Source: Chrysophaeum taylorii
Taxonomy: Eukaryota > Sar > Pelagophyceae > Pelagomonadales > Pelagomonadaceae
Direction of reading: 5' to 3'
Assembly: GCA_029834535.1 (NCBI GenBank)
Contig: JAQMWT010000367.1
Location: 1 to 64,000 of the forward strand
Length of the DNA: 64,000 nt
A program made the position numbers and the translations under genes. Below, in pieces: positions 1,871-64,000 of this stretch (within the stretch, counting starts at the first letter, position 1; each line of letters opens with the position of its first letter). The notes beneath the pieces were generated by a model that was given only the letters and a program-made list of their open reading frames with translations, was not told the origin of the DNA and searched no databases.

Positions 1871-1892
1871 TAGTTTAGCGACGTTGCGGTCG

Positions 1893-6819: not shown

Positions 6820-6841
6820 TAGTTTAACGACTTTTCGATCG

Positions 6842-20626: not shown

Positions 20627-20869
20627 ATGCCTTAAGCGCAAGGTGCGACTGTAGAGCATCTCTTGAGAAAGATGATGATGAAGAGAAAAAAAGAAAAAAA
20701 AGGAAGGAATACAGTCTTGATGGTCACAGAGGTCACATACGAAGCATCAAGAGTGTAGAAGGGTCTTGGGACTTGGACTTGGACTTGGTGAAGCTGGGAG
20801 TCGATTTGACCCTTTTGAACATAACATTAAGGAACACAGATACAACAGACAGTGAGTTAGGATTATTAT

Positions 20870-21386: not shown

Positions 21387-21409
21387 GTAGTTTAACGACG
21401 TTTCGGTCA

Positions 21410-24476: not shown

Positions 24477-24499
24477 TAGTTTAGCGACGTTGCGGTCGA

Positions 24500-26500: not shown

Positions 26501-26509
26501 ATAACGATG

Positions 26510-27094
26510 TTGCGTGTTAACATCATGTGTGATGGCCGTTGTTGTCCTGTTGCCGTCTGAATAACAATCGGAGCGTACGCAGAGTCCAATGGTATTATAT
26601 GGTTGGGTATAGCGAAATCGTAGGTGGACATCAATGAGATGGTAGCACAGGAGTCAAAATATAGAAAAGAGCAATGTGGAGGGACACTGTTTACCTTTAT
26701 GTAGTTGGTGAGGAAGGCGTTTTCCGAATGTGGGCAAGTAGTGGAGAGGCTGGCAGTAATGAAGTTCTTCAGCAATAACAGACTCGTTGGAATAATGATC
26801 GGTTGAACAGGTGGTGAAGGTTCGTCAGCCTCATCAGCCATGCCGTGCTTTTCGTCAAATGACGATAGAGAAGTGTGATCGGCAGCCCTTTTGGTTTCGG
26901 CTTGTGATGGTAGGTTGAGGGCAGATTGGACCTGTGAAGATAGCGAGGACAATAATGCTGGTGGTAAAGCCGAGATGGCGGAAGCGGTAAAGAGGTTAGA
27001 CACAGTATTGGAAGGATTACCCTGTGTGTTTGTAGTAGGAGGAGTTGTTGTTGGGTTGGGAGCAGTAACGACAGTATGGTGTTGTGGCTCCACG
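26510..27094 (-). pseudogene. A2 protease region
   Basis: Retropepsin-like stretch around YFDSCATISLMS and QTATGQQRPSHMMLTRN, downstream of the gag S-L-N-Y motif (27095-27116). In A2 it leads straight towards integrase. Confidence 0.7.
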
Positions 27095-27116
27095 TAGTTT
27101 AACGACTTTTCGGTCG

Positions 27117-28826: not shown

Positions 28827-29345
28827 AGCAGTTGACGGGGAACCTGTGGGTTCAGTCACGCAGTTGACACTGTCTAGACATTCTAAGGGGGTCTGTCTAT
28901 CGGTGTCTATGTACACTCATCGATTTTTCGATGGAAAATGTGTCTATATGACGACTGTGCAGGCTGTGAGTCCAGAGTAGTGTCGCTAAGCGTAGTCACT
29001 CAGGCAGCTGGTTAGTTTTGGTGCTCTCAAGGAGCTTGTTAAGCATTGCTATGTCATGTACGAGTGGACGTACCCAAAATATTCCATAACATGTGTGCAA
29101 GAGTACAGGTTAGCCAATTACACACACATCAACATTAACATGACAATACGAAGCTATGAACAGGTGCACACAAGGTTACACGATCACGTGTGCAAAAAGA
29201 TATTATATACAGCCCAATGGTAATGGCGATATATTGACAAGCGTGTCACATGTCGAGGCTAGGTCGGCGCGGTAACGACCCAATACCCATAGGTTACGTG
29301 CATGTTGACACATGGTTTCTCAGGGACCCGCCTGGGCCCATAACC
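28827..29345 (-). other. A2 5' leader and primer-binding site
   Basis: Leader conserved with A1, A3 and A4. Primer-binding site GGTTATGGGCCCAG next to the LTR (29332-29345 on the plus strand, reverse complement). Confidence 0.8.
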
Positions 29346-29659
29346 TGCAGAGCATTTAGCAAGCAGTGGTAAGTCACCTGGGAAACCATCCCGTCTCATC
29401 GTGAGCGTCTGGAAAGGTTAATTCGGGGAATGAAGGTTATGTTCCCTATATCCTCAGAACACGACAGGCGGCATCTAGAACTACACGAGAAAGGTTAAGT
29501 GTATAGTGCTACATACCTCGGGACGCGCTAGACCATGATGATGAGCGTAGGCACAAATCAGAGGACTATTTGATTGTGTAGAAAGGAAGAAGAAAGGGGA
29601 AGGAAGAGATCACGTTCTCAACGGACGGATAAGGGTAAGAGGCAGCAGATTTCTCTGCA
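29346..29659 (-). repeat. A2 5' LTR
   Basis: 314 bp, TG...CA ends, about 96 percent identical by eye to the A2 3' LTR. Confidence 0.93.
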
Positions 29660-31100
29660 CTTTCGAGCGAGATATGGACGACTCTTTATTTCCAAGTGCT
29701 CTAAGCGTACTTGAACTTTTAGAGCCCCTCGTTCTTTTTATGGAGACGACACCACCACTCTGCATCGTATGGAGATCATATACGAGTTGCTCATCTGATC
29801 TTCTATACAATGAATTATACGGGGGATATAAGTGATCGCTTTCCATGTTACTTGTGTGGAGATTATCAAGCCAGAGAAAGATGGATCCTTGTTGCTCGCA
29901 AATATAATACCGGTCCTTTAGATTTGCTCTCCTGCCCTAATAAGCGAGTTACTTCCTTCCTGGACATTGCGGATCACGTTAACTCCATTAGTCGCAAGTT
30001 AATTGTCGACGAACCCTGGACGCAGGTTTTCTCGGATATACCATTCGTTTCCATCCCCAAAACTTACAGCAGCTTCAGTCGCACAGGATCCGTTCGCCTA
30101 ACGGTTACTGAGCTAGAGACATTAACTATGCTGTTTATCCGTTTGCATTCAAACAAAACAATTGAACATCCAAGTCAAGGCGAAATGGAGGGCATTTCTA
30201 ACTTTCGCATAGGATTCTTAACGAATTCAAGAAAGCCCCTCACATGTATGACTTCTCCTATTGAACTCAAGGCTTTTGTTGTCCTCTATAACATTACGGG
30301 GCGCTTGTTCCCAAATTCCACTACATTACATGTGTATTTCGCATTACAACTGTCGAATCTAACCAACCATCTCACAGGTTATTCTTAAATAAATCCTTTA
30401 CTTCCTCCGTTATTTGCATCAATGGTGGAAGACACACAGGTGGAGACATCGTAGTTTCCAACTCCTCTTCTAAATACCAGGCTCACATAAATGCATTTGG
30501 GGAAACCTACATCTTGCAAACACATGATACAGGAATTGATAAGACTGCTTCTCTCAATCCTGTTACGGGTTTTCTTTGGTTATGCCAAGCTTATCACCAT
30601 CATAATGAAACTCAAGACACCCGTCGTCTCGTGCAAACATTGCTTTCCTACACTCCACCTGTGCTTCATGATTCTTTCATCTTTTATCCAAAGACAAATC
30701 ATCTTGAGTTCATCGATAAAACTTTTGCTTTAAGTGACATGCATTTGTCTCAAAGCAGGTACCTTGGCTTCATCACATCTAGTGATAGAAAGATGGGCGC
30801 CAAAGTTCATTCTATACACACCCCAACTCCCACTATTCGTGGATTTGCTAACATGGTCCTTTACGATCCACGGCTTGATCGCATTCGACATTATTCAACG
30901 CGTGAACTGGCACGCGCCAATAACTTCTCAGCGTACCAAATTAATTTTCTTCTGTCTTTGTCCCCGGACCTGTGCTGTGACATAATTGCTAATGCTATTC
31001 CGGCTGGAACCTATCACGTAATTTATACACATTTGTGTCAGATTGTCTATGATTTGCGTAAATTAACGTTATCACCATCCTTTGACCCTGATCACGCTTC
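29660..31100 (+). pseudogene. C1b C5-cytosine DNA methyltransferase domain (later motifs)
   Basis: Contains a motif VI-like segment PLVLFMETTPP, motif VIII GDYQARERWILVARKY (QxRxR), motif IX YSTRELARANNF and motif X NAIPAGTY, in that order before integrase. These match A3 residue for residue at the key positions in otherwise diverged sequence. The earlier motifs are not in this fragment. Confidence 0.82.
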
Positions 31101-31349
31101 TCTAACCAAAAACTATAGGTCAACCTTTTTCACAAACATATTCCCCACTGACACATACTTAATATTAAACCAGAGTTCTATCACAATGTTATACATCTCT
31201 AATAAAGTCTTCCAATGTTGTGACAACATCTCTTCCAAACACGAACTTCCACTATTTCATCTCGATTCAGTGGCTCACGTCATCTTATCTAACATCTCGT
31301 CCGCAGATACATCATCTCCTACAAAATCGAAATATATTCCCCTCATAAC

Positions 31350-32330
31350 TCCAAGACAGTTACATGAAAAACATGCTTCATTTGACAGAAAAGTCCATGC
31401 CAGAGGCACTCTCGCTTTTCGAGATGCTCAGCGACGAGCTACCAATTCTCACAATATTCATCATTCTAGTGATTCCCAAGCTATAAAAGCTGTTCAGGTT
31501 ATTACCAGTCCGGGACATCATCCTTCAGATGTGCCTTACCGTAAGTTTTGTGTGGATTGTACCTTACACAAAAAACGTCTTCCACATCCACATCATCTTA
31601 CCAAGCAACCTTCATTTGAAAAAGTCTTTCAACCTGGTGAAGCATGGGCATGCGATGGTGGTTGCGTATCTGTCCTATCCGAATGGGGCTCTTTTCGCCA
31701 CATTTTAGTTTTCAAACGCCTCATCTCCAAATTTTTGTTAGTGTACTTTTGTCGTACCACCAATGCCAGTGAATTTTGTAATGCCCTCGAGTTTGTTCGC
31801 AACTTTTGCTCCACCTATGTTCATGTACAATTAAATCAAATTTATTGTGATTCTTTTAAACCCTATTTATCTCAACACGTTACTACTCCCCTTCGTTTTG
31901 AACATGGTATTAATATGTCTTCCCTCCCTACTTGCACGTGTTTAATCATGAAGTAGAGGCCGCTGTTGGTCATATAGCAACTGCTGCGTCTACACGACTC
32001 CGGCATATGCTTAATGTATCATATAAAGGTCACCCCCTAACAGATCCGGCACCACACTACCCGTGGGCTGTTATACATGTTGTTCTTATAATCTCCTTCC
32101 TAATGTTTCTCTCGAACGTATTTATAATAAAGTCCTAAGCCCCCAACAAGTTTTTTTGTTGGATCAATGTAATGTTCCCCAACAAGATTACCTCAAACCT
32201 TTTGGTTCTGTTTGTTATTTGCATCTGGAATCTAATGAATTTCATAAATATGAACCTCGATGTCGTCCCTATATCTACTTATGTGGTGCTAATGTCATAA
32301 ACCCTTTAATCACACCCCATGTTAACCACT
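31350..32330 (+). pseudogene. C1b integrase
   Basis: His-His-Cys-Cys N-terminus ending CVDCTLHKKRLPHPHH, catalytic Asp in EAWACDGGCVSVLSEWG, second Asp in IYCDSFKPYLSQHV, and the Glu in the context NHEVEAAVGHIATAASTRL. The C-terminus around FGSVCYLHLESNEFHKYEP follows. Confidence 0.88.
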
Positions 32331-33379
32331 TAGCTGATGTTGTCCTTAATCCTGAGAACGGCCAAGTCCGTGTTTCTTCTAAACTTACCTTTCCTCATCT
32401 CATTTCTAAATCTCCTCCTGATTACGAACACCATCCCCCACCCGCACCTTCGCCCGACATACCCTTTTCTGTTCACAGCACCCCCAGTGATGCGGCGCAG
32501 AGGGGGAATGCTATGCCCACCGACATTGAACACGAGAGGGGGACTCCTTCATCTCTCGCCCACGCTCCTACTCCCGTTCCCTCATGTGCTCCCGCTGCTT
32601 CTGTCGCCACACCTCCGGCATCTGAAGTTCCCTCCAACACTTTACCCATTTTACCACCCTATCGGTCTCTCTATTCTCAGGATGTCCTTCGTCTCACCCG
32701 TGGTCCTCATCACCCTCAACCTCGTCGCAAGACTAATCTCAAGGCTGTCCTTATTCGTATTGCTTCGCCAACCGTTGCCGCTTATAAACAAGCTGGTGGT
32801 ACGCTTGCTGACTTCAAGTACGACCTCTCCAAGCAGTATATAACCTTCTGCGACTCCACCCTCCACTCCCTTCATGTTGCTCATGGCATCCACTGGACGG
32901 CTATACCTCCAGAGGGGGAATTTACACAAGCTCTTCATCATCACGTTTACCAAGCGCTATTCCAGTCTTCTTCTGATATGTGTCATAGGAGCCTTAGCCA
33001 TCAGTCGACGGATGCCACTCATGTTCATCTCCTCGACGACCTCAGCCTCGCAGACTTTCACCTTCCTCGTGCTCTCGTTCATCTCATTTCCGAACACGCT
33101 CAAGCTCTTCGAGTTCCTCCCGCTCAATATGCTTATGCTTCGCAAACGCCCCATTCTATTTTGGATCATAATGATGCGCCTTATGGTGTCTCCGAGCCTC
33201 ACCTCTCCGCCATCGAAGACTACATCACCGTACAGTCTCATTACATTGATGCACACCTTGGAGACGACCATCTACTAGTTATTCAGCTTGTCGAAGATCC
33301 AGATCCCGCTCACAATAACGATATGGTCGCTTCTTACACAATCATCCATCTTACCAACGCTCAAGACCCCAGCACTGTT
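32331..33379 (+). pseudogene. C1b linker between integrase and RT
   Basis: Pro/Ser-rich segment (PPPAPSPDIPFSVHSTPSD) and then the conserved pre-RT stretch with TVAAYKQAGGTLADFKYDL, the counterpart of the family A linker. No S-L-N-Y is present at its end; the aligned position reads SYTIIHLTN. Confidence 0.65.
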
Positions 33380-35218
33380 GGTCCGGACGAATATAAAATT
33401 CAAGCCAAAGATATCAAGATTGATGAATATGAGTTGACCTGCCTCAAAGGTCTCTCTGACGCTGATCGTAAGGCTTATATCTCCGCTATCTCCAAGGAGA
33501 TTTTTGACATTGTTAAGTTTGGCTGCTTTAAACTCTCACTGCCTATGGTTAACTCCAAGCCTATTGATACCCGACTGGTATTACGTATAAAAACCAATGC
33601 TGCCGGTGAATACATCAAACATAAAGCGAGATTGGTCCTACGAGGATTCTTAGCTTCTCTGGGCACTGACTTTTTAAACACATTTAGCTCAATGGCGCAG
33701 CTCACTGGTATCCGTTGTGTTCTGGCGCTTGCAGCCCACCTACGACTTCCCGTCTGCCACATAGACGTTCCTAATGCTTTTGTTCAAGCTCCCATAGATT
33801 CTCATGCCTATGTTAAACTGCCAAAAGGTATTTACCTACTCGACCCTGAAGATGTAGAATATCAAGGACGACGTCTCCCAAAACTACATAAATCTCTTTA
33901 TGGATTACGACAGAGTCCTGCCCTTCGGAACCAAACCACAAATGGTTTCTTTGACGCATTCGGCTATAAACGTTTTCGAACAGATACATGCATCTATGCT
34001 AAAGTCCAAGCTGATGCTTCGTTTTTACTATGTACGCTATCAGTGGATGATGTTGTTATCACTCGTACATCGGAAAGTCTACGTCGCGAATTCCAGCAAG
34101 CCATGAAGAAGGAATGCTCGGTCGAAAACTTCGAAGAAGTTCATACTCTCTTATGTATGCGCATAACTCGAACTACCGATGGTTCCATCTCACTTGACTG
34201 TCAAGCTAAGATTGATGCATTGTTTGAAGAGTATCCCATTTTAACACAGTTACGTCCTACTTCTACTCCTATGTCCCCCTCAGCCACGTATAAAACTGGA
34301 GAGCCATCTTCGGATATGGACAAGTTCATCCAACACACCTTTTTAAACCTTACTTGACAAGCTTACTTTTGTACAGTTGGCCTGTCGCCCTGACTTATCA
34401 CAAAGCCTTAGTCGTCGTTCCCGAGGAATGCACAATCCAGCATATTTGCACGTCCAAGTAATAACAGGAACTCTTCGCTATCTGCGCAAGCCTGAAAATC
34501 GTAATCTTCGACTATGGTACTACTCCGGTTCTTCCGCTCTAATGGACCATCATAGACTTCTCATCGGCAATCGTACTGACATGGCAACAATGTTGGATTA
34601 CACTAAAGAACAAGTAAATTCAGGTAATTTTGATCCACTGGTGCGTTCGTCGTTGCTGATAACGCACCCTCTTATGAACAAGACCGCAAATCTGCAACTG
34701 GTTATGCCATCTTTTTGTTCGGTTCTCTCATCACCTGGAAGTCCAAACTACAGCCTATCACAGCTACTTCCACGCATGAGAGTGAACTCATCGCCCTTAA
34801 TATGTGTGCTGATGATGTGGTCTTGTTACGCAAATTGTTAACGGAAATGGCGTTTGCTATAACTCCACACTACGATCTTCGCCAACCTCCAGGGAAAGAT
34901 TTGTTATTAGATTATGATGCTCATGACAACCCTCTCCCATCAGACATGTCAATTATGCGTAACAGTCCTATACTTGGAGACTCTGCTTCTGCTATCCATC
35001 TATCAAATAATCCGGACAGTGCGACCAAAGCCAAAGCTATTAGCACACGCTGGTTTCGTATTCGTGATTACGCACACTTAAAACGTATTCGCTTACATCA
35101 TGTTTCTGGCACTCAGAATATCGCTGATGGATTCACTAAACCCTTTGGTGCTCCGCTTTTCACTAGATTTCGCACGTTACTTGGTTTACTACAACCCATA
35201 ACCCAGCAAGATGCTTAA
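33380..35218 (+). pseudogene. C1b reverse transcriptase and RNase H
   Basis: RT blocks KHKARLVLRGFLASLGTDFL, CHIDVPNAFVQAPID, YGLRQSPALRNQ and catalytic LSVDDVVI. RNase H has TSTHESELIALNMCADDVV, GDSASAIHLSNNPD and the ending VSGTQNIADGFTKPFG. It is broken, but the motifs are clear. Confidence 0.9.
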
Positions 35219-43355: not shown

Positions 43356-43669
43356 TGCAGAGAAATCTGCTGCCTCTTACCCTTATCCATCCGTTGAGAA
43401 CGTGATCTCTTCCTTACCATTCTTCTTCCTTTCTACACAATCAAATAGTCCTCTGATTTGTGCCTACGCTCATCATCATGGTCTAGCGCGTCCCGAGGTA
43501 TGTAGCACTATACACTTTACCTTTCTCGTGTAGTTCTAGATGCCGCCTGTCGTGTTCTGAGGATATAGGGAACATGCCTTTTCATTCCCCGAATTAAATA
43601 CTTCCAGACGTTCATGGTGAGACGGGATGGTTTCCCAGGTGACTTGCCATTGCTTGCTAATGCTCTGCA
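43356..43669 (+). repeat. A3 5' LTR
   Basis: 314 bp. It starts TGCAGAGAAATCTGC, a GCAGA-GAAA-TCTGC hairpin, and ends CTCTGCA. Confidence 0.92.
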
Positions 43670-44190
43670 GGTTATGGGCCCAGGCGGTCCCCTGAGAAGC
43701 CATGTGTTAAAACGTGCACGTAACCTATGGGTTTTGCACAGTTGCCGCGCCTGTTTAGCCTCGACACGGAAACACACTTGTGAATACAACGCCATTACCA
43801 TTGGGCTGTATATAATATTTTTTTGCACACGTGATCGTGTAACCTTGTGTGCACCTGTTCATAGCATCGTATTGTCATGTCAATGTTGATGTGTGTGTAA
43901 TTGGCTAACCTGTACTCTTGCACACATGTTATGGAATATTTTGGGTACGTCCACTCGTACATTCCATGGCAATGCACTTAACAAGCTCCTTGAGAGCACC
44001 AAAACTAACCAGCTGCCTGAGTGACTACGCTTAGCGACACTACTCTGGACTCACAGCTTGCACAGTCGTCAAATGGACATCTTTCCATCGAAAACGATGA
44101 GTGTACATAGACACCGATAGACAGACCCCCTTAGAATGTCTAGACAGTGTCAGCTGCGTGACTGAACCCACAGGTTCCCCGTCAACTGTT
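43670..44190 (+). other. A3 primer-binding site and 5' leader
   Basis: GGTTATGGGCCCAG abuts the LTR, then about 500 bp of leader conserved in A1, A2 and A4. The leader contains a TATA-like TGTATATAATAT (about 43808-43819) and a GCACAC...GTGTGC inverted pair. Confidence 0.8.
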
Positions 44191-45899
44191 ATGGCAGAAC
44201 ACGCAGCACGAGCCGCACCCAAAGCGATCACAGGTGCGGATATATTGAAGCTCTAAGCTCCTGTAGTTGAGTTTCTTAACGATGGAAATCGATTTCAGCT
44301 TCAGACTCGCAAGGCATCCTTGCAAATCAAACACATTTAGCAATTATTACGGTCCAGTCATGCCGATGCTTTCCTCGAGTACGACTCGTACGAAGCATAT
44401 ACTCGGTCATGCAAGGACTACGAGATCCTCCGGAATAAAATTCTCGATCGCGTTTTCCTGGAATGGAAGACCGATAGGGCTGCTGATCTCCGTTTAGCTG
44501 TTGATGAATTGCCCCCTGAGTATCAGGAATGGCATTTCACCAACGAAGCTTTCCCCCACTTACCTGTTGCAGAAGTAGCTCAGCTAGCTACTGTCTGTTA
44601 CGACTATGAAGTCAAGGCATTACGTCCTGAAATCAATGCTCGTTTCTTAGAAGAGGAACGAATCTTAAATCGCGCGCACCCGAAGGCACTAGCTTTCGAC
44701 ACCCGTGTTCGTGCCCCTGTTACCATGTTTTCGTTAACTGCTGCTGATTGGCACACTTATCAGAACACGCATGCTACATTCTTGCATACTTACTTCAATC
44801 TTGAATGTGTTGGAAAACCGGCACTTGCGGCCTGGCCCGCCATCAATGAGGTATACAACAAAAGTTATTTACCTAACAAGGCTCGAGCTATTATGCTCAT
44901 CGCCTTTAGTCACTACGAGTCTGTTACGACTACTGATGTGTCTTATTTGAAACAGCAATTTAACTCTGTTGTTTATAATCCTAACTGGTATGTCCACGTA
45001 TTTATCGAAGCTGCCCTAGCATTTAGGCAAATCTCTTACCAACTTAACCAGGAAGAGACTGACCTTCAATTCGACTGTGGCACTCTTTGCAGAAAATCTA
45101 TGAAGAGATACATCGGCATTATGCCGATAATACCAGCAACAACCGTTACGATCGTGGTTGGGTAGATTGGTGTTATATGTACGAAACCCGATCTTCATCT
45201 CGGCCTGTGCCAGAAGCTGAACGATTGTGTCACCCTACCAACCCTAGCTACATTTTAGAATACGCATTAGACCTATACAATGTAGTATCAAATGGGTCGA
45301 ACAAAAGACGCTTAGAACGCCCTGTTTCTTGGCAACCCTATGTCGAAGGTTTATCATCTCAACCAAAGCCAAAGTTACTACTTACAAACACTTTGGACTC
45401 ATCAGACAAAAGTCTGACTCAAACTGCTAACACACTCGCCTTCATCACTTCGTCCCAACCTGGTACATCTTCCACGTTTAATGCTAGACGCTTGCGTAAC
45501 TCTAATGATGCTCGCCAGCCTTTCTCTCGCAGCGATTTATCGTATTATCGTCCTGGTGATTCTTACGTCACCAAGAAAACTGCCGGACAGTCCCATGACC
45601 GTCCAATTTACCCCCGCACTTTTGACAGGTCCTCTCGGTCTAACATGAAATTATTAGATCGAACAAACCACACCTTAAACACCCTGCGAGAACAGTGTAG
45701 TGAACTTATGAAGCATGTGACAGATAATGATACCACGGCTCAGCTACAACAGAATATCAACAAGTTATTTGAGACTCTATTACAATCAGCTGACATTCTG
45801 TCAACGACATCTACTGAGGACAACCGTAGTTTACTTCGTCTAAACGAACAGCTCATGTTTGCAGAAGACATCATTTATGATGTAGACGTTCATCTATCC
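44191..45899 (+). pseudogene. A3 gag region
   Basis: ATG of MAEHAARAAPK. Body with AWPAINEVYNKSYLPNKARA and NPNWYVHVFIEAALAFRQIS, then the basic Ser/Tyr-rich tail. It ends at the first S-L-N-Y motif. Confidence 0.82.
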
Positions 45900-45922
45900 T
45901 CGACCGAAAAGTCGTTAAACTA
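45900..45922 (+). other. S-L-N-Y motif 1 of A3 (gag/protease boundary)
   Basis: Encodes STEKSLNY. The DNA core TCGACCG-AA-GTCGTTAAACTA recurs at every other site in the family. Confidence 0.8.
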
Positions 45923-46940
45923 CGTGGAGCCACAACACCATACTGTTGTTACTGCTCCCACCCCAACGGCAACTCCTCCTACTACAAACACACAGGGTAA
46001 TCCTTCCAATACTGTGTCTAACCTCTTTGCCGCTTCCGCCATCTCGGCTTTACCACCAGCATTATTGTCCTCGCTATCTTCACAGGTCCAATCTGCCGTC
46101 AACCTACCATCACAAGTCGAAACCAAAAGGGATGCCGATCATACTTCGCTATCGTCATTTAATGAAAAGCACGGCATGGCTGATGAACCATCACCACCTG
46201 TTCAACCGATCATTATTCCAACGAGTCTGTTATTGCTGAAGAACTTCTTCACAGCCAGCCTCTCCACTACTTGCCCACATTCGGAAAACGCCTTCCTCAC
46301 CAACTACATGAAGGTAAACAGTGTCCCTCCACATTGCTCTTTTCTATATTTTGACTCTTGTGCTACCATCTCATTGATGTCCACCTACGACTTTGCAATA
46401 CCCAATCATATAATTCCATTGGACTCCAAATACGCGCCGATTGTTATTCAGACGGCTACAGGACAACAACGGGCATCACACATGATGTTAACGCGCAACA
46501 TTGTTATTCCCCTACCAGATCATCCACAAGTTGGCTATGTTAAGATCGACTTCGCTTTATGTCTTCAGCCAGTGCATGACCGACATCTCGCTATCCTGAG
46601 CATGCTCGAGTGGAACCAGACGAACCTGACCACTGTGTTCAATGATCGAGCTGAGCCAAAGCTCAGCGCTGTCACGAGCCGCATAGACAAAGATGTACGT
46701 ATACCCATACATTATGTAGCAGCTAATTTACCTGCTCTCCCTTGTCTCACTTACAACATCGCGCGCGACAAACGGCTCGAACTTCGGTCTCTCGCATTTC
46801 CCCTCAAGCGATACCATGAAAACAGGGATCTACTGGCATACTACAACTACCTACTCCAAAGAGTTTTACCAGATCGCCCGTGGATTCGCCCTTTGGTTCT
46901 CAATCTTCGGAAACAGAACAAATTTGTTCAGCAAAATACG
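45923..46940 (+). pseudogene. A3 protease region
   Basis: After a Thr/Pro-rich stretch, a retropepsin-like core: YFDSCATISLMSTYDFAIPN (likely catalytic Asp), IQTATGQQRASHMMLTRN and HLAILSMLEWNQTNLTTVF. Then a segment (RSLAFPLKRYHENRD) of unknown role leads into the methyltransferase. The protease would process the polyprotein. Confidence 0.75.
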
Positions 46941-46989
46941 CAGCCATTAACTTGACTACTCTCACGCCCAGTGTTTCTCTCACAAGAGT

Positions 46990-48720
46990 CCAATCTCCGC
47001 AAACCCTCTGTCATGTTACTTTGTTCTGGTTTGTCAACTCCGGCGTTCCTGTCTCAAGCCACTAATGACTTAGGCTTAAATATCAATGTAAAAGTTGTTG
47101 TTGAGTCTGATGATACGCTTGTTCGTATGTTACGCCACCGTTTTCCTACTGTATTATTATTTGAATCTCTCCCCGCCTTTATTAACCACCTTCACCTAAT
47201 CTCACCAGAGGAAAGGCGCACATTCTATTGTGATATAATTGAGATCACTCCTCCCTGCACAAACAGGAATTTACTAAAACAGCATAAGACGGAAGACTTA
47301 CACAGCCTGCTGGACGACTCTCTTTTCGACAGCATGTTGTCTGTCATCAAGCTACTCCAGCCCTTGGTACTACTGGCTGAGATGACGCCTCCGCATAAGT
47401 ACTGTCATCAAGACCACATCACAGTGGCCAATCTTATCTATGCAACGCTTGATTACTGTGTCGATGTTGTTGATATGTTCCCGACCTGCCTCTGTGGCGA
47501 CTACCAATCTAGAGAAAGATGGATATGCATCGCACGCAGATATTCTACTGGACCAATTAAACTATTATCGTGGCCCATCCTCCATCCACGCCCCTTCCTA
47601 AAGATCGTGGATGATCTACAAGCTATTCCCAAGCGCCTTTGGCTACCTAACCACGTATCCAAAGACTGGATCCGGGTGTTCCCCGATCCTCCATATGTCC
47701 CCGTTCCTAAAAACTTTTGCACCTTACTCTCGCACAGGTTCTGCTCAGCTTACTATGGCTGACCTTGAATCCCTCAATATGTTACTGCTTCGCCTTCATT
47801 CACAACAGGCTCACGAACAACGCACTCACTCTGTTCAATCCGAGTGTACTTATCATCAGTTGTGCTTTAAACGCTCCTCTATGGAGCCATTACCCAATGC
47901 AACACATCCTATACACGTCAAGGTTTTTACAATCCTCTATAACTTGTTTGCCAGCTTACATACTAACTCACCCACACCTGTGTCCTATTACATAACCGTT
48001 TTTGAAACTAACCAACCGTCACACAGGTTATTACTTACAACCTCATCAACATCACACAACTCCTACTTCTTAACTGGTGGCCACCATTCCGACGGCAACC
48101 TCACCATAGAGAACGCCACCACCAAACAGCAAACTCCCATCAACGCCTTTGGAAGCACGTATACGTTCACTGCTTCCGACATCCCCCGCGACCGGGACAG
48201 GTCCATATATTTGGAGCCGTTTATGGGTTACTTGTGGATAGTCCAAGCCCTTCCCCAAGTTGGCTTCGCTGCCACCTATGGCACCGCCATACAAAAACTC
48301 TTGTCCAGGTGCTCTCTTGTGATGCCTGGCTGCCTTACCTACAAGGCCACCGCCAACTCTTTCGACTACAAGGACTCTCATTTTGCTCTGGAAGACCACC
48401 ACTTATCTCATAGTCGCTATATAGGGTATCTTCGTGGAAGTGACCGCAAACTCGGCTCTAAAATCCACTCAATGCTTGCTCCATTGCCAACCGTCCGAGG
48501 GTATGCCAATATTATTTTACTCGACCCTCGCAACGGGAAATTACGCTACCCCACTCGACCGGAGTTGATTCGTGCTAACAACTACACCAAACAACAGGAA
48601 TCCTTCCTCTTGTCTCTACGCCATGACCTTTGCTGTGACATGCTCAGCAATGCTCTGCCTGCCGGTACGTACAGCACTCTGTACAAGCACCTTTCGCTCA
48701 TCGTCGCCGATATTAAATCC
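46990..48720 (+). pseudogene. A3 C5-cytosine DNA methyltransferase domain
   Basis: Motifs in the canonical order: motif I region VMLLCSGLSTPAFLSQATND (AdoMet pocket); motif II acidic VVESDD; motif IV EITPPCTNRN with the Pro-Cys of the catalytic loop (about 47241-47265); motif VI LLAEMTPP; motif VIII GDYQSRERWICIARR; a long variable stretch where the target-recognition region belongs; motif IX RYPTRPELIRANNYTKQQES; and motif X NALPAGTYSTLY. The family methylates cytosine at C5. The domain sits between protease and integrase, so it would be made as part of the polyprotein. It is a fossil copy. Confidence 0.88.
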
Positions 48721-48989: not shown

Positions 48990-49870
48990 GCCTTCCCCTG
49001 CCGTAGACACCGAACTCAAGTTCGATGTTCGGCGCAAATGGCACATTCCCGCTCATCCAATTCCTCGTAAGTCCCTCGCACACGGATCCACCGAATATCT
49101 CAATGCCAAAGAACGTGCCAATCGCTTTCACCGGGTGCGTCACTGCCCCGACAACGTCGCTGCCAAGGCCCCCAACGTACTTGCTCGCCCTGGATTCTCT
49201 GCTTCTGACATACCATATCGCGACTTATGCACCGACTGCATCGCACACAACAAGCGCCACCCGCACAAGCATTTCAATGCGACCAAGCCTTCTTTTGAGC
49301 AAACTCACAAAGCCGGCGAAGTCTGGGCGTGCGACGGCGGCTATGTGACCGTCCCATCCGAATGGGGAGGCTTCACACCATCGTATTCAAGGAACTCAGT
49401 TCGAAATTTCTCTTGGTGTACTTTACACGCACCACCAACGCCACGGAGTTCACTCCGGCTCTGGATTTTGTGTATGACTTCTGTCGTGCACATTGAGTTG
49501 TGTACGACAGAAGTTGCCTTCCCGCCGTACATGCACCACTTTAACTTTGAAGTTGAGTCTGCCATCGGCTTCATCGCCTCCGCCTCCTCAACTCGCCTTC
49601 GTTCTCTCCTTAATGCTCACTATCGTGGCGCCAAGATCGTGGAACCAGCCATCATGTTCCCATGGGCGGTGATACACACCGTTCAAAGCTATAACCTTCT
49701 CCCGAACGCCACGCTCGAGCGCATTCATCATGCTATTCTGAGTCCGCAGCAGCTACTCTACAACCAACTCAACACTCCCCAACACGATATGCTCAAGATT
49801 TTTGGCGCTGAATGTTACCTCCTATTGGAGCCCCATGAACACCACAAGTGGGAACCGTGCCGCCGCAAAT
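48990..49870 (+). pseudogene. A3 integrase region
   Basis: Zinc-binding N-terminus with HRVRHCP and LCTDCIAHNKRHPHKH, catalytic core opening VWACDGGYVTVPSEWG, later FNFEVESAIGFIASASSTRL with the Glu. The C-terminus is LEPHEHHKWEPCRRKYLYLC. It is broken. Confidence 0.88.
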
Positions 49871-50983: not shown

Positions 50984-52604
50984 ATTCACCAGCCATTGTT
51001 GGTCCTGACGAATATAAGGTCCAAGAAGCGGACGTTTCCATTGACGAATATAAACTTAAGTGCCTCCACGGTTTGTCGCCTGAAAACAGGCACGCCTACC
51101 TCAAGGCCATCGCCAAGGAACTCCACGACATTATCCGCTTTGGCTGCTTCAAACTTTCCTTACCCGACGGTGTCTCTCGTCCTATTGACAGCAGGTTGGT
51201 GCTGAAGATTAAAACAGACTATGAAGGCAAATACGTTAAGCACAAGGCTCGCCTCGTACTACGTGGCTTCCTAGCATCTCTTGGCGCCGATTTCTTTGGT
51301 ACCTTCAGCCCCATGGCCACCATGACCGCAATCCGGGTACTACTAGCTATTGCAGCATACAAGCAACTGCCTGTCTACCATGCAGACGTCCCGAACGCCT
51401 TCGTACAGTCTGACATCGATGCCAATGTCTATGTTCAGTTACCAGACGGCATCAAGCTTATCGACCCCGATGACGCTAAGTACGAGGGCCGACGTCTACC
51501 GAAACTGCTGAAGTCACTTTATGGACTTCGGCAATCACCATCCCTTTGGAACAAAGAGATAGACGGCTTCTTCCGTAGCCTTGGCTACAAACGCCTGCAT
51601 TCGGACTCTTGCCTATATGCTCGAGTATCCGCACATGCTAAGTTCGTCGTATGCAGTCTGTCTGTAGACGACATTGTTATTGTGTCCAATGACGACTCAC
51701 TTCGTACTGAATTACAGGCTGCCCTCCGCAAACGGTATGCTGTAGAGCAGTTTGAACCTGTCCATACCCTCATAGACATGCGTGTGTGTCGCACATCTGA
51801 CGGCTCCATTTATCTGGATGTGCAAGCCAAGCTGGATGAACTATTCGCTGATCACCCAGTCTTGCAGCAACTGACCCCGCTTAAATATCCTATGTCATCG
51901 TCCTTCAAGTATAAAGATGGCACTCCCAGCTCTGAAACAGAGTTGTACATCAATTCGCACTTTGCCACCCTCCTTGGCAAGCTGGAGTTCATGCAAGTTG
52001 CCTGCAGACCTGACTTCTCGCAGGCCTTGGGCAGATGTTCGCGTGGTATGCATGCACCTACGTATGTTCACGTCCAAATGCTAGAGCATTTGCTTTGCTA
52101 CCTCAAGAAGCCGGAAAACCGCTTACTTCGCCTCTGGTTCCATCCTAAAGGTAATGCCATTGAAGCTCACCTTCGCACTGTCTCCGCTAATCGAATTGAT
52201 CTATCCACTGTGGTCGACTACCAACCGCAGGATGTATCTACTGGACAGTTTGACCCCTTAGTTGCCATGGTTGACGCTGACAATGCCCCTTCCTTAGCAC
52301 AGGAAGATAGGAAATCTACCACCGGGTTTGTCTTCTATCTTTTCAACTGGCTTATTGGTTGGAAAAGCCAACTTCAACCGATTGTCTCCTGCTCAACTCA
52401 CGAAGCTGAGTTAATTGCCCTCAGTATTTGTGCTGATGAGGCTGTTTGGCTACGCAGGCTGCTGTTGGAACTCTCCTTTGTCGCCAACCCCACCTTCTAC
52501 GTCAACAATGCTAATGGTGAGAACACCGCTGACCCTGTCGACTTCGATGACAATGACAACCCAATTGCTGAAGATATGCGCTTCATCAGAAGCCTACCTC
52601 TCTT
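50984..52604 (+). pseudogene. A3 reverse transcriptase and RNase H (end not present)
   Basis: RT blocks KHKARLVLRGFLASLGADFF, YHADVPNAFVQSDID and catalytic LSVDDIVIVSND. RNase H follows with VDADNAPS, EDRKSTTGFVFY and CSTHEAELIALSICADEAV. The element stops before the RNase H C-terminus. Confidence 0.92.
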
Positions 52605-54418: not shown

Positions 54419-54720
54419 ACTGACCCTAAATCAAACTTTCTATCTCTAGCAATAGCGAGCAACAGTCGGTTGGTAGCGGGCATTGCGGTCGGCGAGGAAG
54501 TGGCATAGAAGTCAATGCCAACACGTGCCAAGAAACAGCTGGCAACTAGGCGAGCTTTATAGCGATCAGAAATGCCGTCAGCAAAATACTTAATCTTCAG
54601 CACGAGGTTCGTTGAGATGGACTCGTTGAGATGGACGAACGATCCGGCGGCAGTGGTTCCAGCTCGAAGACACCATTGGAGCATAATCCTTCAATCTCCT
54701 TGCGAATCGGCGCGATGTGA
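54419..54720 (-). pseudogene. E reverse transcriptase N-terminal region
   Basis: NLVLKIKYFADGISDRYKAR, LVASCFLARVGIDFYATSSP and LLLAIARDRKFDL match the first RT blocks of copia. The rest of the RT is not next to it. Confidence 0.82.
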
Positions 54721-56250
54721 TTTAACTTATCTTCTTCGCTGAGACCCTTGAGTTCTACGATCTTTTCAGGTTCATATACGATGTTGTCGGAGGTTACGAG
54801 CTGTAACGCGACATGGTCAATTTGCTGTGAGTCATAGTCCACAACTTCCCGAATGATGTCTTGGTTCGGGTCGCTTTGGCTTAAGAAGAGATGTCCAAGT
54901 TCGCCGGAGTCGTGCATAAAGGCGTGCCTGTGGCGAGAAGCTACATGGTAGTGCTGGTGTGCAGCGACGTCCCAACTGAGAGAGGAGCTCATACAACAGT
55001 AGTATTGATTCCATTGTCGTGCGTAATACTCTTCGGGTGAGAGTTCGTCATAACACGTGTAGTTCTCGAGAAGATTGTTATCGTTGTCTAGATGGTCGAC
55101 TAGAACAGACGAATGGTGCGGCTTCTTAGGGAAGTCGACATGCAAGAGTTCAGCGTCTGTTTCTATCTGCAGATCCAGCGCGGTGCCGCCTGACATACCA
55201 TAGTCTTTAGTAGTTTGTGCGAGAAGGCATGCTCTCGGGACATCATCCGGTTGCTTAGTATGTCTCCTTATGTTCAGATCTGACACAATGCTGGCGGCAT
55301 GAACTTGGTGCAGATCGCGGACGCTGATGAGAAACATCAATGTGCTAGACATGTTGGCGGTGGCGCGTGCTGTGGGCTGATCCTGCTGGTACTTCCAGTT
55401 GCGACCATACTTGGAGGCGAGAATGCATCTGGTGAACAATTGTCCGTGTTCAACGCGGTACACTATGAAGAGTTCATCCTTAGGGATGCGGAAACCGCGG
55501 TCGTCCGTGAAATCTGCTTGAGTTTGTCACTCTGATTGCGATGGACAATGACCTGGGTAAACCTGAGTCATCGAGGACAACCTGTAGGTGGTCATATCGC
55601 TTTGGCATCGGGATGCTGCCGTCAGGTGGAGGCGGCCTGTTGAGGAATGAGAAGTCCTGCTTGGGCGGCTCTTCATCGTCTGAATTTGGGTTGATACCAG
55701 AGGGTTGTTGGTCCGAGTCGGTGTCTTTGTCATCGGGTTTGTCGTCGTTGTCGGAGACATGAGTCTCGCCCTCTGATGGTGTTTCGCCCTCAGTCAATGA
55801 TTCCTGTCGCGTTGGCTGGTTGCTGAAAGCCGGAGGCGGAGTGTGTTGCCGAGGGTCGGTTAGGAACTGAGCCTTGATGTGCTCAATTTCTATGTTGCGA
55901 TTTACTGGCAAATCTGCGTCGACATGGAAGTCGTTTGACGTGACGATTTTTCCGTACTTCCCCTGATGTACAAGCAAGATGGAGCTATGGGCATCACGAA
56001 CAAATCTGTCAGTGCCGGGGAGGTTGGCCAAGTAGTTGCTGCTGTGGAAAAAGGATGCGGACACGCTGGAGGGTTCCAGTTTCTGGCGTTTCGGGTACAC
56101 GAAGGTGACAGGTTCGCCAAACGGGAGGAGTTTAAGAAGCGGCGCCTTTGACTACATGATACGTATGGGAATGGTGCAAGATATGTGATTGCGTGAGCGC
56201 AAGACAGGAGAGCGTTGATTGTCAGCCTGGACCTTGTGCAGCAGAGCAAA
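54721..56250 (-). pseudogene. E region between integrase and RT
   Basis: Includes an acidic Asp/Ser/Pro-rich stretch (about 55690-55800), KQDFSFLNRPPPPDGSIPMP and the pre-RT segment VELKGLSEEDKLNHIAPIRK, the counterpart of LKCLHGLSPENRHAYLKAIA in family A. Confidence 0.6.
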
Positions 56251-56996
56251 GGGGTAGTAATACTCAACGCGAATGGACTTCCCTCAATGCGGATGTGGTG
56301 TAAGTTCAAGAGGCGAATGACAGTGCCTCGAGTGTTCTCCTTGATGGTGTTTTCTGCGAGGTTCCGCTGGTGGAGGTGGCAACCAAGGATCTGAATTTGG
56401 ATACCGAGCTGCACCTTGAGTGGGTGAAAGACTTCAGAGCGAAATGTCGAGAAGGCGTCGGAGGATATCATCGTTAGTGTACGTCGAATTCGACCTTAAC
56501 GACGTTGACCACATAGAGAATGCCTGCGAGAACATCTTGTGCGTCCAATTTTCGCAGGAAGTACAACCATTTGTGAGCCGAGACGACGCAAAATAAAGTG
56601 CACTATGCAACGAAATCTACCATAGCACTTGCTGATACTCGGGTAGGGAACATCCATGTGGAGATGCTGGCCAGGAGCATAGGCCAATTCGTCATGCGAC
56701 CAAGAATGATTCTTATGGTTGAAACCAATGTGCGACTTGCAGCGCTTGAAGTCGCCGTAGTCCTGCAGGTACCGACCATCACCTGGGCGGAGGTTGGTGA
56801 CATTAGCGGCGATAGTGCGGCGAAGAACGTCTGGCTGTTGGTGGTGGATGCGGTGCCAGCGAGTTACCATTATCACTCTTTGGGCATGCCGAATGGTGCC
56901 GGGCTTGTGAAAGTGGGGCAATGCGGCGGTCGATGTGCTTGGAGGGTTGGCTCTTTTGTCGACTCTTACATTGGCGGCGGTAGCGGCGGCGAGCAA
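56251..56996 (-). pseudogene. E integrase region
   Basis: HRIHHQQPDVLRRTI and CKSHIGFNHKNHSW in the zinc-binding part; LHMDVPYPSISKCYGRFRCI at the first catalytic Asp; SDAFSTFRSEVFHPL and NLAENTIKENTRGTVIRLLN with the later Asp and Glu regions. It is a broken copy. Confidence 0.75.
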
Positions 56997-57023
56997 GGTT
57001 TCGCGATTTGTCGAGTCGTGCGA

Positions 57024-58955
57024 CTATTGAATCGCAGCGCGGCGCGCGTCCGCAACAGCACCGAACAGGGAGGCGAATTTGAGTTCCTCTACTGCTAGGA
57101 GACGGCCAGATATTGTTGAGAAGAAGTCCGTGATATGGCAGATGGCTCCAGGACTAGAAATGCCATTGCGAAGAGTGTCCCATTCGAGATGAAGGTTCAC
57201 GTGGTGATGCGAGGCATGGAGGGTGAGGACAGCATCGTACCTGGCCAGCAGCATGTTGTGCGGGACAGCGTTGTCCAGTGCCTTAAACGCGAAGAACGGT
57301 GGGTGCTGACGGAACCGGCGGAGGAGCTCTGGGTCCGAGTGGTGACCGAATCGTGCGATCTCGTTGAGAGTCGCGTATCGAATGCGATCTGGGGAGACCA
57401 GGAAGGGTGCGTTCGAGTAACTGTTGTTGGTGGGGTACGAGCCAGTGACCGAGTAGCACTTGGTGCTTTTCTGGAGTGTGTCGCCGACATGGCCGACATA
57501 GTCCGCGTACGTGGGGCGTGCCTCGGACATTATTAGTCCTGTGGGGTCATCGATAGTAATTATCCCTCGTGAGTCGATCGCGGCAAAGCCTGGATGCGAA
57601 CGGTTCATATAATGGACCCACGTTGAGCGGCGCGAGGAGTTGTGTGCGGCAGCTAAAGAGGTGGTGAAAGCCACGACTAGAAAGGCGGTACCCTCGGGAA
57701 CAGACATAGAGGAGGCGTGTAGCGGCGAAAAGGCGGCGGTCTGGTGGGGACAATCCAGGATCTGGGGAACTCGCGAATGGATCGTGAGAGATGCGCGCTC
57801 GAAGTAGCCGCATGCGAGCGCGGTAGCGGCAGTGCCTGGGATGGGTCCATCCAACTGGTATGCGTGTGCAGACTCTGATGCATGATAGCAGCGAAGCGTG
57901 ATCCAAGCAGCAAGAGTGGGATGCGATAGCAGATGATAGTGCAGCAATGTGAAGACCAGGAGATTTGGTATGAAAGCCATGGAGGCAAGGGGGTGCCGTC
58001 TGCGTCCAGTCCGAGATCCAGGAAGGGCGCCTTTAGACGTGCGACCATCTGACAGATGCGGGCGTTTTCGGAAATCGAGAGCCACGCATCGGTTGTGGGT
58101 GTGTACAAGAAGAGGGCCTTGTGGCTATAATAATCCAGGGTCGAGCGAGCGACAGTGCCGCGAAGAGCGGGGGCAGATACCCATAGGACTGCTTGGATGG
58201 TTTGAACTGGATCCAAGAAGGGAACCATGCTCGGAGGGGATATGAGCCAGGGGGAGGCATTTTTCTCGCGATTGTAGCCATCTAGAGGGTGCCGAGCGAA
58301 AACTGCGAGGTAGCGGTTCTTGCTGATGGCGTCGCCGAAGGATGAGGCGTTGTAGACACCGGAGTGTGACGGAAGTAGCCCATACCTTTATAATGTTTGG
58401 CGAGTTGCAAATACTCGTGGTGTGTTTTCGGGTTTGGGGGAACGTTCTCGACATAGCGTAGGTTGGGAGCGTACAACGAACGAAGCGAGCTTGCTCCTTG
58501 ACAAAAAGGTCGGCAGTCGCTGGGGTCGCATAGCCGTCGTAGTCTTTCATGATGCTCAGATGTTGACATGGTAGAGTGAAAACTGCCATATCGAATCGAG
58601 GCATGCGAACTTTTCCGTTTTGGAGGTCGGCAGTGAGTTGCCGAAGATCCCCATAGTGCTGGGCGTCTGGAAACAGACGTTGCGTGCGAGCACGCAGGGT
58701 GGGGTTAATTTCGCAGGTGGCTACGACAATGATTTGTTTGTCGAATCTTTTTGCGAAAGGAAGCGAAACCCTCTTGGTGGAGTCCACCTGCAATGATGGC
58801 AACGTGTAGCGGAGGTGGTTGTGTGGACACAGGGAGGTCCGCGGTGCCAGTGAGTGCATATTCTAAATAAGGGCTGGGCAGTCTGAAAGACTCCGTCAAG
58901 AAAGCAGAGTGGACTTGTAGTTTGGCGAAATCGAGGGTGTGAGACATGGACCGAG
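57024..58955 (-). pseudogene. E C5-cytosine DNA methyltransferase domain
   Basis: Motif I-like AIIAGGLHQEG (58769-58811); motif II CEINPTLRARTQRLFPDAQ; motif III YGDLRQLTADL; motif IV DMAVFTLPCQHLS with the catalytic-loop Pro-Cys-Gln (about 58551-58577). Further on, motif IX-like RYATLNEIARFGHHSDPELL and motif X DNAVPHNMLL before integrase. The PCQ form and motif II/III spacing resemble classical Dcm/DNMT proteins more than the PPC form of family A. It is broken. Confidence 0.85.
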
Positions 58956-58998
58956 CTTTTGAGACCTTAGTGGTGATTGCACAGAACTTAGTAGTGAT

Positions 58999-59308
58999 TG
59001 CACAGAATTCGACTAGGCAGTGGTTAAGGCACTGAGAGACCATCCCGCCCCACCGTGTGATTTTGGCAGGGCAGATTTCAGGGAACAAAGGTTAGGTCCC
59101 CCTAGCCTCGGCACACGACAGACGATACATAGAAACACACCAGGTTAACATGTGGTCCTACATACGTACGGGACGCGCTAGTTCATGACGAGCTTGGACG
59201 CAAATCAGGGACTAGAGATTTGGTGTGAAAAGGGAAAAAAAAAGGTAAGGAAGAGATCGCGTTCTCGACGGACGGAATTAGGGTAGGAGTTAGCAGATTT
59301 CTCTGCAC
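58999..59308 (-). repeat. F 3' LTR
   Basis: 310 bp, TGCAGAGAAATCTGC at its 5' end and GTGCA at its 3' end. It aligns over its whole length to the family A LTR with many differences. Confidence 0.85.
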
Positions 59309-62517: not shown

Positions 62518-62832
62518 TGCAAAGAAATCTGCTGCCTCTTACCCTTATCCGTCCGTTGAGAACGTGATCTCTTCCTTACCCTTATTCTTCCTTTATACAC
62601 AATCAAATAATCCTCTGATTTTTGCTTGCGCTCATCATCATGGTATAGCGCGTCCCGACGTATGTAGCACTATACACTTTACCTTTCTCGTGTAGTTCTA
62701 GATGCCGCCTGTCGTGTTCTGAGGATATAGGGAACATACCTTTTCATTTCCCGAATTAAACACTTCCAGACGTTCATGATGAGACGGGATGGTTACCCAG
62801 GTGACTTACCACTGCTTGCTAAATGCTCTGCA
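62518..62832 (+). repeat. A4 5' LTR
   Basis: 315 bp, TGCAAAGAAATC to CTCTGCA, directly abutting C3. Confidence 0.92.
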
Positions 62833-63353
62833 GGTTATGGGCCCAGGCGGGTCCCTGAGAAACCATGTGTAAAAACGCGCACGTAACCTATGGGTATTGG
62901 GCTGTTACCGCGCCGGCCCAGCCTCGCCACGTAAACACGCTTGTGAATACAGCGCCATTACCATCGGGCTGTATATAATATTTTTTTGCACACGTGATCG
63001 TGTAACCTTGTGTGCACCTGTTCATAGTATCGTATTGTCATGCCAATGTTGATGTGTGTGTAATTGGCTAACCTGTACTCTTGCACACATGTTATGGAAT
63101 ATTTTGGGTACGTCCACTCGTACATTCCATGGCAATGCACTTAACAAGCTCCTTGAGAGCACCAAAACCAACCAGCTGCCTGAGTGACTACGCTCAGCGA
63201 CACTACTCTGGACTCACAGCTTGCACAGTCGTCAAATAGACATCTTTCCATCGAAAACGATGAGTGTACATAGACACCGATAGACAGACCCCCTTAGAAT
63301 GTCTAGACAGTGTCAACTGCGTGACCGAACCCACAGGTTCCCCGTCAACTGCT
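62833..63353 (+). other. A4 primer-binding site and leader
   Basis: GGTTATGGGCCCAG at 62833-62846, then the conserved family A leader. Confidence 0.82.
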
Positions 63354-64000
63354 ATGGCAGAACACGCAGCACGAGCCGCACCCAAGGCGATCACAGGTGC
63401 GGATATATTGAAGCTCGAAGCTCCCTTACCCTGATCGCCGACTGCGGTTGCGATGGAGGACGGTGCCTTATGAATCCTGAGCCTTGCGAGGGCATCCGCC
63501 CTCCCGGCGTAGGTTGGCACCTATTCGCCTCCCGGGCGGGCCGGTTGGCAGCCGGAACGTTCGCAGTGGGACGGGGTATGGCCGGGGGGCGAAGACGGAA
63601 GGTTATCGACGAGTGGGTTGTCAGTCACATCGCGGTATCCTCGTCGCATGGCGACAAGCTTGATGGTCACTCTCCGCCGACCGACCTTTCGGCGCTCCTC
63701 GTCTACAGGCCCGTGATTCCGGACTGGCACCTGTCGGTCCGGCCTGGCTCCCATGCTCGGGAGAGGTCTGAAGTTAGTTAGTTAGTTAGAAGCTCCTGTA
63801 GTTGAGTTTCTTAACGATGGAAGTCGATTTCAGCTTCAGAACCGCAAGGTATCCTTGCAAATCAAGCATATTAAGCAATTATTACGGTCCAGTCATGCCG
63901 ATGCCTTCCTCGAGTACGACTCGTACGAAGCATATACTCGGTCGTGCAAGGACTACGAGATCCTCCGGAATCAAATTCTCGATCGCGTTTTCCTGGAATG
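63354..64000 (+). pseudogene. A4 gag start (holds a SINE)
   Basis: ATG of MAEHAARAAPKAITGADILK, split by the SINE, then resuming with PVVEFLNDG and continuing to the window edge in the same pattern as A2. Confidence 0.82.
63424..63788 (+). mobile_element. SINE-like TTAG-tail element, subfamily I, in A4 gag
   Basis: 365 bp, CCTTACCCTGATCGCC to TTAGTTA. 7-bp duplication GAAGCTC (63417-63423 and 63789-63795). The empty site is seen in A1 and A2 gag, which proves insertion. Confidence 0.92.

Follow-up and report, generated by a model that had tools for sequence, protein, structure and literature searches.

Introduction

Does the stretch between positions 46956 and 48720 of this DNA encode a C5-cytosine DNA methyltransferase (C5-MTase) that has become part of a retrotransposon polyprotein? 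The window, by which we mean the whole 64,000-nucleotide stretch of Chrysophaeum taylorii DNA that was analysed (source assembly of 70.8 Mb in 697 contigs), had been annotated in a first pass from its letters, and that annotation proposed a C5-MTase built into a copia polyprotein as a case possibly separate from those known in other algae. Few retrotransposons are known to encode a cytosine MTase of their own, and these are mainly other kinds of mobile elements in dinoflagellates and a green alga; an affirmative answer adds to them Ty1/copia and an enzyme that does not look like DNMT3.

Organization of the carrier element

The domain lies in element A3, which runs on the plus strand from a 5' LTR to a truncation (Table 1). 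Its coding order is Gag, a protease-like motif, a TGA codon, MTase motifs I to VIII, a large region, motifs IX and X, integrase, a copia reverse transcriptase (RT) and an RNase H-like segment. Several frameshifts break A3, and one of them falls inside the MTase domain. The carrier is a Ty1/copia element, as judged by its RVT_2-type RT (E 1.2e-39 in the window and 7.7e-42 in genomic copy L047), by the integrase-RT order and by the LTRs. The order was read from L047, in which Pfam places the integrase family rve at 784-866, upstream of RVT_2 at 1431-1651; this rve match scores 16.9 bits, under the rve cut-off of 32.6. The LTR evidence consists of the LTR pair of copy A2 and the 5' LTR of A3. No 3' LTR of A3 was seen in the window, whereas A2 does have a 3' tail and LTR. 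The Gag-protease region, which is frameshifted in A3, forms one open frame of 892 aa in genomic copy L048, where the protease-like motif reads FYSCA as against FDSCA in A3.

Further copia copies occupy other parts of the window (Table 1). In A2, an internal deletion of 2.5 kb takes out the whole MTase, and two tandem LTRs (20008-20616) are found at its 3' end. The subfamily C copy is 41-47% identical to the Pol of subfamily A along most of its length; its gag part lies at 18328-19973 (plus strand), and A2 sits between that part and the remainder. Just beyond the truncation of A3 there are proline/serine-rich open frames on the minus strand (52603-53759) and a 159-bp tandem repeat (53020-53330). 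Arrays of 17-19-bp tandem repeats of the AGGTGAACTTACTGGGACC type recur in the window at 14692-15360, 40202-40490 and 42072-42173.

Table 1. Features of element A3 and of the other copia copies in the 64,000-nucleotide window.
Feature	Position	Strand	Remarks
5' LTR of A3 (TG...CA, 314 bp)	43356..43669	+	common to LTR copies 29346-29660, 20305-20616, 9079-9394, 62518-62832
Candidate primer-binding site, GGTTATGGGCCCAGGC	43670..43685	+	sequence read directly; presumably pairs with initiator-Met tRNA around its anticodon
Gag and protease coding region	44191..46952	+	Met at 44191; frameshift of A3 near 45.09 kb
Protease-like motif FDSCA	46350..46364	+	by motif alone; no Pfam match
TGA CTA, conserved stop between Gag-protease and MTase-Pol, same frame	46953..46958	+	candidate readthrough site
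C5-MTase catalytic part, motifs I-VIII	46956..47720	+	Pfam, joint profile, motifs, model
Motif I, LLCSGLST	47016..47039	+	
Motif II, VVESDD	47097..47114	+	
Motif IV, ITPPC	47244..47258	+	
Motif VI, LAEMTPPH	47373..47396	+	
Motif VIII, QSRERW	47505..47522	+	
Region between motifs VIII and IX	47560..48540	+	~330 residues; target-recognition position
Frameshift-bearing stretch of A3	47701..47720	+	
Motifs IX and X	48544..48666	+	
Motif IX, RYPTRPELIR	48544..48573	+	
Motif X, LSNALPAG	48643..48666	+	
Integrase zinc finger and core start	49129..49344	+	zinc finger 49129-49239, ACDGGY 49327; motifs
Copia reverse transcriptase	51379..51672	+	HADVPNAF to SVDD; RVT_2
RNase H-like motif STHEAELIAL	52393..52422	+	named by motif
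3' truncation of A3	52604	+	match to L047/L048 stops here
A1, second A copy	214..9394	-	MTase motifs I, IV, VI, VIII, IX, X in differing frames, partly deleted
A2, third A copy	20305..29660	-	LTRs 29346-29660 and 20305-20616, 96.5% identical
Fourth A copy	62518..64000	+	extends past window end; interrupted 63424-63789
B-subfamily copy	54433..59001	-	MTase remains in differing frames: GGLH 58777, TLPC 58566, ENV 58441, TLNEI 57357
Subfamily C copy	29756..35218	+	motifs VIII (29867), IX (30895), X (30985); integrase, RT, RNase H motifs

The domain is a divergent C5-MTase

The seven motifs follow one another in the order of C5-MTases and are flanked by the protease-like motif on one side and the integrase zinc finger and core on the other. 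The order given in the first-pass annotation thus stands. In this copy, motifs I to VIII and motifs IX and X are in different frames because of the frameshift at about 47.70-47.72 kb. The whole domain is contained in a single frame in copies L047, L048 and L039. The catalytic Cys of motif IV and the Glu of motif VI are invariant in all 14 A copies and all 4 B copies aligned. The Cys stands in PPC in each of the A copies, in LPC in each of the B copies and in PC in two relatives found outside the window, P0001 and P0002; the Glu is kept throughout an 8-row alignment of A, B and P sequences. The other motifs are more divergent. Against F-x-G-x-G, motif I reads CSGLS in A and the relatives and AGGLH in B, with the first Gly present and the second replaced. 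Motif VIII is QSRER in A and QARER in C and the relatives, and B retains just the last Arg. The Gly-Asn position of motif X reads SN or AN instead of the canonical GN.

Could a resemblance of this kind arise by chance, with no methyltransferase behind it? Asked alone whether it is a METHYLTRANSFERASE, the window open reading frame matched PF00145 at E 0.014 with 15.3 bits, below the curated cut-off of 22 bits, and this is the one result that leans towards chance. In the Pfam search suggested in the first pass, the cut-off was exceeded by the B copies L031 (32.1 bits) and L032 (29.9 bits) and by P0002 (23.0 bits), the window copy and P0001 (20.2 bits) remaining below it. When motifs I to VIII of 14 A copies were searched, PF00145 was the one family listed, and 12 of the copies matched it at E<=1 (best 0.0032). 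At this threshold PF00145 was matched neither by a longer stretch of L039 nor by the Pol of L047 taken whole. Of four element proteins compared with the NCBIfam models, that of B was the only one to match a methyltransferase model, TIGR00675, and its 33.6 bits fall short of the cut-off for that model (100.65). The region between motifs VIII and IX matched no family in the Pfam scan.

Profile searches against PDB were then compared. It can be seen that, first, a profile of A alone found no MTase at E<=10 and one of B alone found a single MTase at 0.039. Secondly, the joint A and B profile matched 8yf3 at 1.6e-6 and HhaI at 0.0026, with C5-MTases in 42 of 48 rows. Thirdly, when P0001 and P0002 were included the values were 3.8e-8 for 8yf3, 2.7e-6 for M.HhaI and 1.2e-5 for 3g7u, with C5-MTases in 21 of 22 rows; DNMT3 was absent among these 22 rows, and DNMT2 was found at 0.17, far behind HhaI and 8yf3. 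Chance would hardly make two subfamilies reinforce each other in matching unrelated enzymes. Tblastn with the B domain found 18 phage records (best E 4e-6), and 15 of them were listed, 9 annotated as DNA methyltransferase or methylase, 5 as hypothetical protein and 1 unannotated. Finally, an AlphaFold2 model of the window residues, with a pLDDT of just 54, aligned with C5-MTases in 49 of the 50 entries listed (Z to 11.6); DNMT classes are not told apart in this list, and the fold was therefore not used to assign one. Chance resemblance is refuted by these profile and fold results, namely the Pfam scores of B and P0002, the 12 A matches, the joint profiles, the phage records and the model, and its probability is negligible. 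The window domain is a genuine C5-MTase domain, though this copy is decayed.

Copy number and reading frames

With the window domain as query, subfamily A was found at no fewer than 145 places in the genome (146 rows, window included), all at E<=1e-37 and mostly 88-96% identical to the window domain, the lowest being 73%. This count is a lower bound, 145 of 1197 candidates having been scored, and it rules out an artefact of one odd copy. A genome search with PF00145 found 57 places. Two of these (L001 and L002) look like host genes, and all 28 further places fetched, of 55, carry subfamily B as shown by tblastn. L001 (G000:C634), which we take to be DNMT2-like by its motif, overlaps or adjoins a light-harvesting-type gene whose best matches are antenna proteins named VCPI, FCP and acpPCI; the host is accordingly likely to be an alga of the chlorophyll-c or related lineages. 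L002 (G000:C621), probably a host MTase, has an open frame of 2086 aa, and its motif IV is unusual (AGTSCVDYSSLN); it possibly belongs to the DNMT5 class.

Six larger regions were fetched for frame reading. In L047 the MTase, integrase and RT are in one frame of 1691 aa, and Gag is broken. In L031 a frame of 1952 aa holds the protease region, MTase, integrase and RT, with a stop inside RT. L048 has its Gag-protease frame, one stop and then a frame of 1230 aa with MTase and integrase, its RT part being broken. In two copies other than that of the window the MTase thus shares an open frame with integrase and RT, and no copy intact from end to end was found among those fetched. The MTase precedes RT in L031 and L032 as located by Pfam, and precedes integrase and RT in L047 as located by alignment. 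When the frameshift site of A3 was compared with 14 other copies, a length change at the same spot was seen in L038, and some others have their own nearby. A programmed frameshift common to the family is ruled out, 1 of the 14 being changed at that spot; the frameshift of A3 may share its origin with that of L038.

The domain is mostly under purifying selection

Over motifs I to VIII, dN/dS was 0.18 across 14 A copies and 0.15 across 9 B copies (10 loci tried, one dropped for stops); in the former value dN is biased downwards, 12 of the 14 A copies having been those that matched best as protein among the 145. Pairs free of frame problems were also compared. For the A pair L047/L048, dN/dS was 0.31 in motifs I-VIII, 0.41 in the VIII-IX region and 0.30 in IX-X, with 0.24 in integrase and 0.81 in the integrase-RT linker. 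For the B pair L031/L034, the corresponding domain values were 0.10, 0.10 and 0.12, with 0.09 in the protease region and 0.30 in integrase. A further B pair, L031/L032, gave 0.53, 0.34 and 0.11 in the domain, and 0.19 in the protease region, 0.17 in integrase, 0.30 in the linker and 0.21 in RT; a local frame slip in L032 has probably inflated the value of 0.53. In the A pair the linker is thus under less constraint than the domain, which does not hold for L031/L032. For the decayed window copies, motifs I-VIII gave higher values, 0.41-0.60 in pairs with A1 and 0.53 for A3/L047, as against 0.15 for A3/L048. The mean over 28 pairs was 0.28 for motifs I-VIII, as against 0.45 for RT and 0.22 for Gag; the integrase and linker values of this set, which from their size seemed to reflect wrong-frame alignments, were not used, and those of the frame-safe pairs stand in their place. 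These values indicate that the domain is constrained broadly like other parts of Pol, and it is mostly under purifying selection, with dN/dS of 0.1-0.5.

The Gag-Pol junction

A TGA codon separates Gag-protease from MTase-Pol in the same frame in all 13 A copies read (the 14 A loci less L036 and L043, which did not match the search pattern, plus A1 of the window). Its context is TGA CTA in 11 copies, TGA CCA in one and TGA ATA in one. UGA followed by CUA favours stop-codon readthrough. This conserved UGA(-CUA) suggests that MTase-Pol of subfamily A is made by readthrough. RNA structure downstream of the UGA was not significant (z -1.0). In subfamily B, Gag and Pol lie in overlapping frames. 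A and B, although related copia subfamilies, thus appear to use two different strategies of Gag-Pol expression.

The copia class includes an element, Tca2, with which this junction can be compared. Tca2 of Candida albicans is a gag-UGA-pol element, for which a pseudoknot was proposed and whose junction alone gave no readthrough in S. cerevisiae, according to its abstract and outline (PMC2194720). In both elements a UGA stop separates Gag and Pol. They differ in the pseudoknot proposed for Tca2 and in the MTase, of which the abstract and outline make no mention for Tca2.

Origin of the domain

Over ~600 aa, motifs IX and X and the large spacer included, A and B align colinearly with ~21% identity. 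Two relatives were found outside the window: P0001, an MMETSP transcript with 40% identity over full coverage, and P0002, an ENA contig with 37% identity. Known from the domain alone, they appear to be members of the same family. A second-round search with the 8-row alignment of A, B and P sequences (A7) returned P0001 alone. No relatives were found in viral contigs (query sets A2 and A6) or in genome contigs (query set A6), none of P0002 in plasmids, and none at E<=0.01 in a protein search with the Pol of B, in which candidates were limited to proteins of at least ~1070 aa.

Did A and B acquire the domain separately? Their low identity would be consistent with it, as would the absence of a tblastn link between them at 1e-5 and an hhalign comparison of two small alignments that was not significant (E 0.065, probability 0.85 of 100). 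However, the domain has the same place in Pol in both, with the same motif order and the very large spacer between motifs VIII and IX, and solved MTases are matched at 1.6e-6 by A and B together, as against 0.039 by B alone. A maximum-likelihood tree set A, B, P0001 and P0002 apart from four phage MTases and the probable host enzymes L001 and L002, this split having a UFBoot value of 98. As a quick tree of 13 sequences and 203 columns, with long branches and lacking DNMT1 and DNMT3, it is suggestive. Independent captures therefore seem improbable. A single capture, before the split of A, B and C, is the probable origin as far as these alignments go, and a separate, old capture by copia is the best reading.

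Possible function of the MTase

We propose that the decayed window copy belongs to an abundant Ty1/copia family in which the Pol polyprotein includes, between protease and integrase, a C5-MTase domain with motifs I to X and a target-recognition region of unusual size. A single capture, preceding the divergence of A, B and C, was probably its source, and selection has kept it since. In subfamily A, occasional readthrough of the UGA after Gag-protease would yield the MTase together with integrase and RT; carried along in Gag-Pol, the enzyme would enter the virus-like particle and, by the time of integration or during it, would methylate the DNA newly copied from the element. Such methylation would serve as a short-lived self-mark and not as a lasting genomic mark. 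Taken jointly, from the MTase-bearing copia family and its single capture through readthrough and packaging to methylation of its own cDNA, this proposal is in our opinion moderately probable.

As an indirect test, singleton transitions were counted among the copies. There was no CpG-specific excess, with 21 in 246 CpG sites (0.085 per site), 64 in 786 CHH sites (0.081) and 18 in 208 CHG sites (0.087). CpG observed/expected was 0.92 in A3 and L047 and 1.04 in L031, below the 1.26 and 1.46 of two host-gene loci, and TpG was raised in A3 (1.29), so that some older CpG loss is possible. The absent CpG-specific excess narrows the hypotheses on any mark and hints that it is transient or lies outside CpG.

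It might be argued that the domain, a C5-MTase by descent, no longer methylates and has been retained for a structural, nucleic-acid-binding or spacer role in Pol. The degenerate motif I in A and B, the mostly lost motif VIII in B and the lack of a CpG-specific excess would fit such inactivity. The catalytic Cys and Glu, however, are invariant in the 14 A and 4 B copies and shared with P0001 and P0002, and QxRER of motif VIII is retained in A, C and both relatives; we therefore regard inactivity as rather unlikely. The same missing excess would be compatible with an enzyme acting on RNA (genomic RNA, the tRNA primer or an RNA:DNA hybrid) instead of cDNA, and RNA methylation was raised for SymbioLINE by de Mendoza et al. 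in a passage of their paper (PMC5890265). Against this, no match was specific to the RNA-acting DNMT2, which at 0.17 is far surpassed by HhaI and 8yf3, and action on RNA is correspondingly unlikely.

Alternatively, the enzyme may act on the host genome, methylating insertion sites or perturbing silencing to the benefit of element or host. The high copy number would accord with this, as would the other PF00145 genes of the genome (L001 and L002) and the scarcity of CpG in the elements (0.92-1.04) relative to the two host-gene loci. Yet the singleton changes show no excess at CpG, and nothing in the results links the domain to host chromatin, which makes an action on the host very unlikely. Methylation of the element's own cDNA remains the preferred reading. 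An extended form of it, to which we give tentative credence only, is that a whole copia lineage, found in more than one eukaryote, goes back to one ancient capture of a C5-MTase of bacterial- or DNMT1-like type. The enzyme would have diversified along with the element as its 'modification subunit', with a very large recognition region and with targets that differ between subfamilies. It would mark the cDNA (or the RNA:DNA hybrid) as self in the particle, leaving no lasting genomic trace.

Selection on the domain, more than 100 copies and several open-frame domains make it a testable question why a retroelement should carry the kind of enzyme used for silencing retroelements. Natural variants of the enzyme and of its recognition region are at hand in a fairly small genome (70.8 Mb), in subfamilies that have diverged deeply.

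Comparison with known MTase-bearing elements

That MTase-bearing retrotransposons exist in dinoflagellates and a charophyte, as the first-pass annotation stated, is borne out by the relevant parts of the 2018 paper (PMC5890265). The carriers described there are SymbioLINE-Dnmt (a LINE) and SymbioDIRS-Dnmt3 (a DIRS element) in the dinoflagellate Symbiodinium, and KnitGypsy-Dnmt3, a Ty3/gypsy element, in the charophyte Klebsormidium nitens; the copia elements of Symbiodinium are stated to lack a DNMT domain. One clause of a later article (PMC12344493) places some DNMT3 members in 'LTR Copia and DIRS' elements and cites the 2018 paper, which in the parts consulted reports gypsy, not copia; from this clause, there may be an earlier copia-DNMT3 case. 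Among titles and abstracts of the open-access literature, we found none that reports a copia element with a C5-MTase. With LINE, DIRS and Ty3/gypsy as the carriers described in those parts (PMC5890265), the case looks separate, as surmised, and Ty1/copia would be a further carrier class of C5-MTases among retrotransposons.

The present family resembles KnitGypsy-Dnmt3, as described there, in having a C5-MTase in the Pol of an LTR element, purifying selection and several copies. It differs in that KnitGypsy-Dnmt3 is Ty3/gypsy and of DNMT3 class, whereas the present carrier is Ty1/copia and DNMT3 was absent from the rows of the profile search. With SymbioDIRS-Dnmt3 and SymbioLINE-Dnmt it shares, on the same source, an MTase in retrotransposon coding regions and copy-number expansion, the carriers there being DIRS and LINE. 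DIRS elements with a Dam-type N6A MTase (PMC5890265) and a Sola1 transposon of Ectocarpus with a ParB-MTase protein (PMC12477816) are, from the passages concerned, likewise cases of transposon-borne DNA MTases, but of N6A or N4C and not C5 type. Among enzymes, M.HhaI, M.HaeIII, 8yf3 and DNMT1 are alike in profile and fold matches and in motif order, and a further likeness to bacterial-type C5-MTases and DNMT1 is the PCQ that B and P0002 have in motif IV. From these the domain described here is set apart by ~330 residues between motifs VIII and IX, by a degenerate motif I and by its place within a polyprotein.
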